DNA of 55,334 nt from a bacterium (GTDB lineage Bacteria; Vulcanimicrobiota; Vulcanimicrobiia; Vulcanimicrobiales; SCRA01), in contig SCRA01000024.1 in the NCBI GenBank assembly GCA_004297985.1, positions 1-55,334 on the forward strand, written 5' to 3'. A program made the translations under genes and the position numbers. A model generated the notes under the pieces. The model saw only the letters and a program-made list of their open reading frames with translations. It made no database searches and was not told the origin of the DNA. Shown one piece after another: positions 23,166 to 26,635 of the stretch (position 1 is its first letter; every line of letters begins with the position of its first letter).

Positions 23166-24953
23166 CTACCGTTTCCCCTGCAAGCGATGACGAATTGCCT
23201 GGGACTCATCGCGCAGCTCGGCGGGAACACCATCGCCTTGGGCATACTTCTGCTCGATCTCGCGCTCCAACTCGCCCAGGCGCCTGCGATCTCCCCGCTG
23301 AGCGAGGTCCGCGGCGAAGCGTTGAACCTGCTCTTCTAATGCCTCGGGGGCCAGCGCTTGGCTGGCGGCGGCGGCCGTCGACGAGAGGACGTCAGCCAGT
23401 GCCCCTGCGGCCTCCTCGTCGTCGCCGAGGAAGGCGAATGGCTCGATGCCGGCCTCGAGCTGCCCGCGGTGGGCCAGCAGGGCGCCGTAGAGCCGCCGAT
23501 AGACGGGATCCTCGATGGACTCCAACCGCACGCTCGACGCAACGGTTTCAAGCAGCGCCGGCTGGGCGAGTAGAGTCGCGAGAAAGTCGCGTTCGCGCGG
23601 GTGCCGTTGCGGTATCGCGGGGGCATAGCGTGTGAAGGCGCGGGTTCCCGCGGCCGGCCGCTCGGCCCGGTGCCACGCCTCGGCGAGAAAGCGGCTGGCG
23701 CGGACTTCCTGGGGATCCACGCCCAGCCGGCGGCAGAGCTGCACCAGCCAGTAGTCGCGCTCCAGCTCGTCGATCCCGGCGATCTCGCGGGCGACCGCGC
23801 GCAGCACGTCGGCGCGGCTGGCCGCACCTTCACGGATGCGCTGGTAGGCGCGCTCGATCTTGTAGCTCTCCCACGGCACCGCCGCCCCGAGCAAGCCCGC
23901 GAAGGCCTCCGCACCCCGCCCGCGGACGAACGAGTCGGGATCTTCTCCGCTCGGCAGCAGGACGATCTGCGCCTCGATGCCCGCCGCCCGCAGCGTGTCG
24001 ACGCTCTTGGACGTGGCGTTGGCTCCGGCGCCGTCACCGTCGAAGCAGAGGAACGCCCGCTGCGCGTAGCGGTGCAGCTCCCCCGCCTGCTCCGCCGTGA
24101 ACGAGGTGCCCAGCGACGCCACGGCGGACGCGAAGCCGGCCTCGTGAAGCGCGATGCAGTCGAGGTAGCCCTCGACGATGATCGCCGCCCCCGCCTGCGC
24201 GATAGCCCGGCGCGCGACGTTGAGCGCGAAAAGGTGGCGCCCCTTTGTGTAAACCGCCGTCCCCGCTGTGTTGAGATACTTCGGTTCCTGGTCGCCCAAG
24301 GCACGCCCGCCGAAAGCGATCACTTCACCCGTGGGCGCATAGGTGGGGATCATCAGCCGCCCGCGATAGAAGTCGTACGGGCCGCGCTGCCCTGGCTTCA
24401 GGAGGCCCGCGCGTGCAGCGATCTCGAGATCGATGCCCTGGGTTTGCAGGTAGCCGACGAGCCCGTCCCAACGCTCGGGCGCGTAGCCGATCTTGAAGGC
24501 GGTGAGCGTGGCCTCCGAGAGGCCGCGCTTGGCGCAGTAGAGACGCCCCGCGTCGTTGTCGGCGCCGCGGCGCAACTGCTCTTGAAAGTAGACGACAGCG
24601 GCCGCGTTAGCCTCGTAGATGGCCTCACGCTCGGAGCGGTGGCGCGCCATCGCCGGCGTCTCCTCCTCCACTTCGACGCCGGCGCGCTTGGCGAGCAAAC
24701 GCACCGCCTCAGGAAAGCTGACGCTCTCGATGAGTTCGATGAACTTGAAGAGCCCTCCGCCCTGCCCGCAGCCGAAGCACTTGAAGAAGCCCTTCTCCCC
24801 CGCGACGCTGAAGCTGGGCGTGCGCTCGTTGTGAAACGGGCAGAGGCCGACGTAATCCTTGCCCCGCTTGCGCAACTGCACGTAGGAGCCCACGACCTCC
24901 ACCAACGGGAGGCGCGCTTGGATCTCGGTCAAGACGGAGTCAGCGATCGCCAC
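23166..24953 (-). CDS. dnaG: DNA primase
   Basis: Synthesises RNA primers at the replication fork. The 595-residue protein has an N-terminal zinc ribbon (CPFHNERTPSF ... CFGCGQGG, about residues 38-64), a TOPRIM core with EGYLD and the acidic FDGDGAG motif, and a C-terminal helicase-binding region rich in Ala/Glu (about 430-595). The start codon is GTG. The upstream 467-bp region contains a LexA-like box about 100 bp from the start. rpoD follows 157 bp downstream. Confidence 0.96.
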   Translation of the reverse strand: MAIADSVLTEIQARLPLVEVVGSYVQLRKRGKDYVGLCPFHNERTPSFSVAGEKGFFKCFGCGQGGGLFKFIELIESVSFPEAVRLLAKRAGVEVEEETPAMARHRSEREAIYEANAAAVVYFQEQLRRGADNDAGRLYCAKRGLSEATLTAFKIGYAPERWDGLVGYLQTQGIDLEIAARAGLLKPGQRGPYDFYRGRLMIPTYAPTGEVIAFGGRALGDQEPKYLNTAGTAVYTKGRHLFALNVARRAIAQAGAAIIVEGYLDCIALHEAGFASAVASLGTSFTAEQAGELHRYAQRAFLCFDGDGAGANATSKSVDTLRAAGIEAQIVLLPSGEDPDSFVRGRGAEAFAGLLGAAVPWESYKIERAYQRIREGAASRADVLRAVAREIAGIDELERDYWLVQLCRRLGVDPQEVRASRFLAEAWHRAERPAAGTRAFTRYAPAIPQRHPRERDFLATLLAQPALLETVASSVRLESIEDPVYRRLYGALLAHRGQLEAGIEPFAFLGDDEEAAGALADVLSSTAAAASQALAPEALEEQVQRFAADLAQRGDRRRLGELEREIEQKYAQGDGVPAELRDESQAIRHRLQGKR

Positions 24954-25065: not shown

Positions 25066-25071
25066 CTTCGC

Positions 25072-25202
25072 GGCGGGACGCGCCCCTTCCGGGGACGCGC
25101 GTCGGCGCGCGCCCCTGCGCGCCTCCTGCTCCCTTCGCGCGCGCTCTCGCCCTCCGTGGCTCCGCGCGCGCCTCAGAGGCCCCGTTCGGGACGCATCCCG
25201 CC
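25072..25202 (-). repeat. GC-rich structured repeat element, copy A
   Basis: A 131-bp unit closed by terminal inverted repeats GGCGGGACGCG (25072-25082) and CGCATCCCGCC (25192-25202), which pair with one G-U wobble. Its reverse complement aligns with the second unit at 25269-25403 over most of the length, for example GAGGCGCGCGCGGAGCCA in A against GAGGCGCGAGCGGAACCA in B, and GGGAGCAGGAG against GGGCAGCAGGAG. It also contains an internal CCCC-TTCC-GGGG hairpin. I see no coding sense in it. Confidence 0.6.
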
Positions 25203-25268
25203 TCTTCGCTCACGACCATCCCCGCGAGAACGTACTCTAAGCGCTTACGGGAGCGCTTCACCCGACGA

Positions 25269-25403
25269 GGCGGGGCACTCAGCGCAAAGCGGGGGCTCCG
25301 AGGCGCGAGCGGAACCAGGATGGTGGAGCGAAGCGCGAGGGCAGCAGGAGCGGCACACGGAGGTGCCGCGACGGGCGGCCCCGCGTGCGGTGAGTGCCCC
25401 GCC
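25269..25403 (+). repeat. GC-rich structured repeat element, copy B
   Basis: A 135-bp unit bounded by a perfect 12-bp inverted repeat, GGCGGGGCACTC (25269-25280) and GAGTGCCCCGCC (25392-25403). Inside are a second helix (GCGGGG/CCCCGC), a GCTCC/GGAGC stem with an ACCA-GGA-TGGT tip, and a 7-bp hairpin GCGGCAC-ACGGAG-GTGCCGC (25350-25369). The right end touches the GAGGAG ribosome site of the HD-hydrolase gene, so it would form the folded 5' leader of that mRNA. It is an inverted, diverged copy of the 25072-25202 unit. Confidence 0.6.
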
Positions 25404-25420
25404 GAGGAGTAGCGCAAACG

Positions 25421-26635
25421 GTGAAGCGGATCTTCGACCCCATCCACGGGTTCATCGAGCTGACGGAGGCCGAGGTGGCGCTCATGGATAGCGCTCCGTT
25501 TCAGCGCCTGCGGCGGCTGCGCCAGTTGGGGCTAGCCTACTTGGCTTTTCCCTCGGCGGAGCACTCGCGCTTCACGCATGCCCTGGGGGCGCTGGCCATG
25601 GGGACGCGCGCTCTCGAGGCGCTGCGGGACCACTCGCCGGAGTACTTCCAATCGGAGGCCGACTACGACGCTCAGCGCCGCTTGCTGCGCGTGGCTCTGC
25701 TGCTGCACGACCTCGGCCATGGTCCGTTCTCCCATGCCTCCGAAGCGGTGTTGGGGCGCCGTCACGAGACGCGCACCGAGGAGGTGCTCGCCCTCCCCCA
25801 ACTGCACGAGGGGATGGGGCGCGCGGGCGTAGATCCGCGCGAAGCGCTCGCGCTCATCGTGAACGATCCGCCTTCGTCGTTTCCCGTGCTCAAGGAGCTG
25901 GTGAGCGGGCCGAACCTGGACTGCGACCGCATGGACTACCTGCAGCGTGATGCCTATTTCACGGGGGTCAGCGGCGGGCGCTACGACGCTGCGCAGTTGG
26001 TGGCGTCGCTGCGCGTGCTGCGCGTCGACGGCCAGCCACGCTTGGGCGTCGATGGGCGAGGCTTGGTGGCGCTGGAGCAGTTCGTGCTGGCGCGCTACAT
26101 GATGTTCGCCACCGTCTATTTCCACCACACCACGCGCGCGTTCGAGCGCGTTCTCGGCGACGCGCTGCGCGAGCTCTGGACGGCTCCTCAAGAGCTCGAC
26201 GCCATCGAAGAATTCTTAGCCTGGGACGACTTCCGCGTCATGGAGCAGCTGCGCCCCTCGCAGACGGCGGCGGCTCGCGCGCTGCGCGACCGCGTGGCGC
26301 CCTTTGCGCTGGCCGCCGAGTTCAACGGCGAGCGCGATCTCACGCTCTACGAAGCCTGCGAGCGCGTGCTGCGCGATCGCTTCGCCGACGACGTCTGGGG
26401 TGACGCCCAGGAAGAGCGGATGCGCCGCGGTCCCGCGCTCTACGTGCATCTGATGGGGGCCATCGTCGAGGCAACGGAGGCCTCGGACCTCATCCGCGGG
26501 CTGGCCGGTAAAGCCTACTGGCGCAAGCTCTTCGTACGCCGCGGAGACGATTGCGTGAGCGAGGCACGTCGCCTCTGCGCCGAGGTGCGCGCGCGCCGTC
26601 AAGCGACCTGGAGCTCCGTCCCGCTGCCGTTCTAG
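25421..26635 (+). CDS. HD-domain phosphohydrolase (dNTPase/SAMHD1-like)
   Basis: A 404-residue metal-dependent phosphohydrolase. The N-terminal KRIFDPIHGFIELTEAE and the HD core (HSRFTHALG, then LLHDLGHGPFSHASE with the tandem His-Asp) plus LDCDRMDYLQRDAYFTGV are hallmarks of the YwfO/SAMHD1-like branch, several members of which hydrolyse dNTPs. The GTG at 25421 was selected because the family begins (V/I)KRIxDPIHG; GAGGAG is 11 bases upstream. It is divergent from dnaG across a structured spacer. Its stop codon overlaps that of the convergent sco gene. Confidence 0.9.
   Translation: MKRIFDPIHGFIELTEAEVALMDSAPFQRLRRLRQLGLAYLAFPSAEHSRFTHALGALAMGTRALEALRDHSPEYFQSEADYDAQRRLLRVALLLHDLGHGPFSHASEAVLGRRHETRTEEVLALPQLHEGMGRAGVDPREALALIVNDPPSSFPVLKELVSGPNLDCDRMDYLQRDAYFTGVSGGRYDAAQLVASLRVLRVDGQPRLGVDGRGLVALEQFVLARYMMFATVYFHHTTRAFERVLGDALRELWTAPQELDAIEEFLAWDDFRVMEQLRPSQTAAARALRDRVAPFALAAEFNGERDLTLYEACERVLRDRFADDVWGDAQEERMRRGPALYVHLMGAIVEATEASDLIRGLAGKAYWRKLFVRRGDDCVSEARRLCAEVRARRQATWSSVPLPF

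Follow-up and report, generated by a model that had tools for sequence, protein, structure and literature searches.

What are the two inverted, structured units that lie between dnaG and an HD-domain hydrolase gene? The window, which is the whole stretch of DNA analysed (55,334 nucleotides), is one whole contig of a 3.19 Mb genome in 90 contigs. The first-pass annotation had placed two structured units of about 133 bp at this site, and a covariance model built from 15 copies of the same genome (R2) recovered both of them and had no further match in the 55 kb. The matches, copies A and B, are listed with their parts and neighbours, with the evidence in brackets.

25070..25204, minus (folding strand, reads toward dnaG): copy A, whole unit (R2 103.9 bits; z −5.4)
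25180..25204, minus: copy A, closing stem P1, 5' arm (alignment A1, pair counts)
25130..25179, minus: copy A, P2 helix; internal loop G-A, apical loop ACGGAG (model, pair counts, fold)
25104..25123, minus: copy A, P3 hairpin with loop AGGGGC; like some other copies, lacks GGA in P3 (sequence, alignment, fold)
25070..25094, minus: copy A, P1 3' arm (alignment and pair counts)
25205..25268, no strand: spacer of 64 nt between the head-to-head copies (coordinates of the R2 matches)
25269..25403, plus (folding strand, reads toward the HD hydrolase): copy B, whole unit (R2 93.1 bits; z −7.7)
25269..25294, plus: copy B, P1 5' arm (alignment, pair counts; compensatory changes against G001)
25295..25344, plus: copy B, P2 helix with apical hairpin AACCAGGATGGTG (alignment and pair counts)
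25350..25369, plus: copy B, P3 hairpin GCGGCACACGGAGGTGCCGC (sequence, alignment, fold)
25379..25403, plus: copy B, P1 3' arm (alignment and pair counts)
23166..24953, minus: dnaG, context (Pfam Zn_ribbon_DnaG, DNAG_N, Toprim)
25421..26635, plus: HD-domain hydrolase, context, likely start GTG at 25421 (Pfam HD, HD_assoc_2)

Copies A and B were mutually reverse-complementary, as annotated, with 76% identity over 96 nt. Terminal inverted repeats were present as well, but the 11-12 bp assigned to them was too short, as the closing stem P1 was modelled with 25 imperfect base pairs. Copy B was correctly described as ending at the hydrolase ribosome site: P1 ended at 25403 and was followed by GAGGAG (25404-25409), and the GTG start at 25421 was kept in relatives. 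Compared with 200 dinucleotide shuffles, copy A showed z-scores of −5.4 on the minus and −2.3 on the plus strand, and copy B showed −7.7 on the plus and −5.2 on the minus strand; each copy beat all shuffles on its folding strand.

The unit of about 135 nt forms a three-way junction of the closing stem P1 with the hairpins P2 and P3, for which the annotated term 'multi-branched RNA' is apt. On the folding strand, the 5' to 3' order is P1, P2, a linker AG[UC]AG, P3, a linker ending in GCGUCC, and P1'. P2 is interrupted by a G-A internal loop and capped by the apical hairpin GCG[GA]AGCC-AGGAU-GGC, and P3 is usually GGA-looped. In an unfitted MAFFT alignment of the 15 copies from this genome, 92.2% of the cells were paired, against 73.9% after shuffling (0/500 shuffles as high), with double changes at 32/46 pairs. 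For 74 matches in 73 named loci, in an alignment fitted to the model, the values were 91.1% and 54.5%, with 1125 double-change cells against 342 and double changes at 45/46 pairs. The covariation supporting the three-way junction is overwhelming, and the compensating changes that had been annotated are real.

For residue counts, 143 matches were reduced to 129 distinct sequences, 126 of which were used for the P1 strand and coding-overlap counts. GGA was found in the P2 loop of 125/129 distinct matches, where 77/143 source matches came from loci found by a pattern containing that loop; in loci L083-L155, located by a pattern with the P2 apical motif, P2 conservation reflects the selection of loci. 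The P3 region held GGA in 103/129, and P3 was ACGA in 15/129. P1 had a median of 32 Watson-Crick pairs in 126 elements and 36 in 71 elements, with an almost free sequence that was unalignable between most copies, while the core was conserved.

Copy B was intact in the same-genus genomes G003 and G001, with nearly the whole core kept and compensatory changes in P1; intermediates of the P1 pairing were seen as G-G in the window and A-C in G003. Copy A was mostly lost (truncated) in G001, and G002 had neither copy.

Occurrence and copy number

The whole-genome counts were all made with R1, the first covariance model, whose P3 register differs by one column from that of R2; R2 gave nearly the same matches, mostly with higher scores. 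R1 found 27 matches at E<=1e-3 in the genome of the window. The scan of the order found copies in 45/61 genomes and 18/28 genera, and that of the phylum Ca. Eremiobacterota in 74/149 genomes (70 of the same order and 4 of a sister family of the class); the filters of both scans were stricter and miss weak matches, which makes the copy numbers from them minimum values. R1 found no element in the 10 genomes listed for genus g13. The annotation had considered a local GC-rich duplication without function, in case neither further copies nor covariation were found; both were found, and this reading is abandoned.

The P2 apical motif, searched in about 85,000 species genomes, gave 73 stretches, titled Eremiobacterota/Eremiobacteria in 45 cases, Planctomycetota, Ca. 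Kuenenia, Deltaproteobacteria or Oligoflexia in 10, and other bacteria in 18. An R1 match was present in 67/73 of these loci; the six others were L091, L102, L124, L140, L151, and L152, with L102 and L140 truncated at contig ends. Three metagenome-assembled genomes titled Planctomycetota or Ca. Kuenenia showed 42 (G061), 50 (G065), and 40 (G066) R1 matches. Their loci have 65-72% GC, which we take to be unlike Kuenenia, and the genes of locus L155 from this group are of planctomycete type as read from the proteins. Viral contigs gave 0 exact matches. A well-supported structured family without a match in Rfam 15 is common in an almost uncultured phylum and reaches high copy number in some Planctomycetota-titled genomes.

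Two pairs of copies in the genome of the window were near-identical (L016/L050, 100% over 118 nt; L004/L053, 97% over 116 nt), which shows some recent copying. In the same genome, 7/27 matches lay less than 1 kb from a contig end (C23, C24, C32, C33, C40, C66), which suggests that identical copies break the assembly.

Gene ends and turnover in place

Genes around the elements were called with our own crude gene finders, and elements overlapping a called ORF were dropped (14/95 single elements in the first set, 14/71 in the set of 20 kb regions). The 57 elements placed in the 20 kb set occupied 35 codirectional, 18 convergent, and 4 divergent gaps, compared with 295, 98, and 110, respectively, among the full set of 503 gaps measuring 40 nt or more. 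The elements avoid divergent gaps (53/57 in non-divergent ones) and sit near stop codons. The RNA 3' end faced a gene 3' end within 60 nt in 35 of the 57 and the RNA 5' end did so in 12 (p 0.001); for single elements of the first set the counts were 41/81 and 17/81. With respect to strand, 30/57 followed a gene of the same strand and 27/57 did not, and one sense copy lay inside the atpG-atpD operon. Close opposite-strand pairs were head-to-head in 14/14 cases. The window is one of the exceptions, as both of its copies lie in a divergent gap. Lagging-strand insertion was rejected for lack of any relation to GC skew over 20 kb (34/71). Directly beside one element, at L054:1278-1460, a 6S RNA match of 49.2 bits (above the gathering score) was observed.

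Several sites were occupied in related genomes, with gene names taken from a reading of the proteins. Positional conservation was seen at infB-rbfA (genera g2, g25, and g16), atpG-atpD, lpdA-lipB, and pdhB-pdhC, and at hslU-def the element was conserved in place as a pair. Differences in the core and in P1 were 4/89 and 14/44 at infB-rbfA in g16, 1/89 and 10/44 at atpG-atpD, 5/90 and 7/44 for the hslU pair, and 1/91 and 12/44 for L027/L131. At infB-rbfA and atpG-atpD, P1 turned over and yet stayed paired. Few core changes beside many P1 changes at several sites imply selection in place. Core and P1 showed equal counts at lpdA-lipB (12/91 and 12/44) and for L038/L145 (9/90 and 9/46).

In 31/126 elements, P1 overlapped a neighbour's stop codon or the end of its coding region. 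At atpG, synonymous changes of the coding arm were matched by the non-coding P1 arm in L064 and L134, and in L119 the non-coding arm lagged behind.

At infB-rbfA, genomes G010 and G037 held only decayed remnants. In G002, which has neither copy of the window, the gap was unalignable, and no clean empty site that would show a target-site duplication was found. In genus g37 (L205, L207) the unit in the infB-rbfA gap had the opposite orientation, through a separate insertion or through inversion in place between the two P1 arms. Two other repeats were seen in this gap. In genus g2 (L074:1346-1464 and relatives), a second dispersed repeat of about 110 bp lay between the rbfA start and the element. 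G060 contained more than 10 additional matches to this repeat, and G030, G050, and G140 contained many; it looks unrelated to the element. The repeat CCCTTCGACAAGCTCAGGGTGA lay in the infB-rbfA gap of G050, G010, and G037 (L198, L202, L203).

Strand polarity and described families

A neutral palindrome is expected to leave G-U and A-C mismatches equally often. Under strand-neutral scoring, P1 of the 126 elements held 170 G-U and 64 A-C mismatches, and the second set (20 kb regions, 71 elements) held 116 and 54, or 41 against 10 when counted per element (p 1.5e-5), orthologous sites in these counts being partly non-independent. The G-U:A-C ratio was 52:20 (126 elements) and 40:20 (71 elements) where both neighbour genes were on the opposite strand, and 36:12 and 17:6, respectively, where both were on the element strand. 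As the excess appears whichever way the operon runs, the constraint lies on the element's own strand and not on the host mRNA. This polarity argues for an own transcript or for folded single-stranded DNA; being independent of the operon, it separates mRNA-level explanations from those at the level of an own transcript or of DNA. The same test could be extended to REP-like repeats in general.

Rfam 15 at the gathering score gave no match on the element in the window and 16 loci, lenient Rfam scans gave only matches far below the cut-off, and no description of the element was found in the open-access literature searched. The family is apparently undescribed. We file the element as a REP-like structured repeat with a TwoAYGGAY-like core, whose function we infer.

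The portion of PMC3733652 used here describes REP, BIME, and REPIN sequences as GTAG- and CGTC-tagged palindromes with a hairpin of 20-40 bp. According to that portion, REPs are dispersed and extragenic, mostly downstream of unidirectional or convergent genes, and frequently form inverted dimers, and CGTC-tagged families exist without a dedicated transposase. The element resembles them in its extragenic, non-divergent gaps downstream of genes and in its inverted dimers of fixed geometry, and it has AGYAG and GCGUC motifs, here unpaired in the junction. Unlike a palindrome of 20-40 bp with an end tag, it is about 135 nt long with three helices, its long P1 has a free sequence, and copies number 1-50. 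It also differs from GTAG-type REPs in that Y1 (RAYT) genes are almost absent from its order. The Y1 transposase was absent from the genome of the window, and Y1_Tnp was found in 3/70 element-bearing genomes of the order and in 4/4 of sister family f3. Owing to its size, its branching, and the lack of RAYT, the element is kept out of the REP/BIME family, and RAYT was rejected as its mover because most element-bearing genomes lack it.

TwoAYGGAY (Rfam RF01731, in clan CL00106 with RsmW), treated in PMC4333381 and PMC2864571, is the nearest described architecture. PMC4333381 describes two GGA loops, a tandem G-A, and an outer stem of low conservation, and proposes TwoAYGGAY as a CsrA binder. The element likewise has two GGA-loop hairpins ((A)YGGAY in TwoAYGGAY) inside a variable outer stem, a tandem G-A in one stem, and CGUC 3' of the second hairpin. 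The RF01731 model itself gave matches over the gathering cut-off in 0/6 genomes scanned and none at E<=10 in the genome of the window, and its sub-threshold matches elsewhere sat apart from the R1 matches of the same loci. Other TwoAYGGAY- or RsmW-like GGA-hairpin modules below the Rfam cut-off were observed in G061, G065, G066, and G049 (L182-L196); in L184 and L194 such a module lay beside an inverted R1 match, and in L183 one lay about 600 nt after tmRNA.

ERIC is a MITE, and IS200/IS605 ends and integron attC sites are strand-specific folded DNA with variable stems. The element is short, multicopy, structured, and near genes like ERIC and like Nezha, which the consulted portion of PMC3733652 names as a MITE, but it has no fixed terminal inverted repeat, and its ends are non-homologous between most copies. 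The annotated MITE-like candidate, taken as a MITE with fixed terminal inverted repeats, does not agree with an outer stem that is wholly different between most copies around a conserved core. The strand-specific fold and variable stem recall IS200/IS605 ends and attC sites, from which the element differs in having no transposase found nearby and no relation to 20 kb GC skew. No parent transposon was found between inverted copies; in L143, where two opposite copies lie far apart, the only gene between them was read as that of a dehydrogenase.

Readings of the element

That the element is a REP-like dispersed family under selection for its fold is, in our judgement, highly probable. For the pair in the window, our slight preference is for a dispersed gene-boundary element of ancient origin and REP/BIME-like kind, present in two copies. 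The gene-boundary function is put forward tentatively. A cell factor would read the folded strand through both GGA loops and the internal G-A loop at times when this strand is single, either as RNA that heads for the neighbour's 3' end or as exposed DNA. Such reading would mark or protect the gene end, and may limit read-through or antisense transcription, or stabilise or process mRNA. The element may have spread as head-to-head pairs through an enzyme acting in trans, after which some copies would be selected and others decay. Against this best explanation, not every copy is kept, as seen in G001 and G002 and in the infB-rbfA remnants of G010 and G037, and the sense copy within atpG-atpD fits poorly with a strong transcription block. 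A broader form of the reading seems rather doubtful to us: a trans-phylum class of strand-specific folded gene-end elements, unlike described repeats and RNAs, which would be selected in either operon orientation and read through the two GGA loops of the three-way junction, with P1 recruited from host sequence (the last codons and stop of the neighbour, the non-coding arm following synonymous changes).

A non-autonomous mobile element of REPIN or MITE type without host function is unlikely. Its P1 would stay paired via template switching, and its conserved cores would be recent or re-inserted. Head-to-head pairs fit a mobile doublet equally well, and the near-identical copies in one genome, the decay at some sites, the opposite orientation in g37, and the extension of P1 into stop codons or coding ends are all in its favour. 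PMC8604942 reports that template switching makes the arms of inverted repeats homogeneous and inverts the spacer; such switching could keep P1 paired without selection. The G-U excess is not predicted by such homogenisation. In addition, cores with 1-5 changes beside P1 stems with 7-14 at several orthologous sites imply selection in place, and the Y1 transposase is absent from 67/70 element-bearing genomes of the order.

We regard as improbable that the copies are dispersed CsrA/RsmA-binding RNAs, in which a CsrA dimer would find a pair of GGA-loop hairpins in each unit and the copies would jointly serve as a sponge. The frequency of GGA in the P2 loop (under the pattern selection given above) and in the P3 region, together with the TwoAYGGAY likeness, would suit this proposal, and CsrA is encoded in the genome of the window and in 64/74 element-bearing genomes. 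No CsrA was seen in the other 10, most of which are incomplete. Of the 10 genomes listed for g13, 7 have CsrA and none has the element. A tie between CsrA and the element was rejected within the order, CsrA being found in element-free relatives too. For the 27/57 elements that are not downstream of an own-strand gene, read-through would not make the GGA strand, and an own promoter was not indicated by any AT-rich signal at a fixed distance upstream of the elements or in the window gap. The ACGA form of P3 also speaks against CsrA. A free-standing small RNA, likewise raised by the annotation, is a possible form of the element, with no promoter-like signal found upstream. Should a CsrA-type protein read the element, a system known chiefly from a handful of dedicated small RNAs would have a dispersed form that spans the genome.

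Similarly improbable is a strand-specific insulator, in which the fold would form in RNA entering the 3' end of the adjacent gene and would stop or destabilise that RNA, head-to-head pairs guarding both convergent genes. The RNA 3' end facing the neighbour's stop codon (35 against 12, and 41 against 17 for single elements), the constant pair geometry, and a strand polarity independent of the sense operon are consistent with it. The sense copy between atpG and atpD and the lack of a U tract after P1 are not. An intrinsic terminator is disfavoured, as base composition was flat after P1 and the window region contained 0 terminator-like sites.

Cis-acting leaders (riboswitch or attenuator) of dnaG and the hydrolase, a candidate raised by the annotation, are very improbable: both window copies lie in a divergent gap on the strand of the gene that they face and copy B abuts the ribosome site, but the family adjoins many unrelated genes, mostly at their 3' ends, with 4/57 elements in a divergent setting, and the same-genus genomes G002 and G001 lack both copies and most of copy A, respectively.
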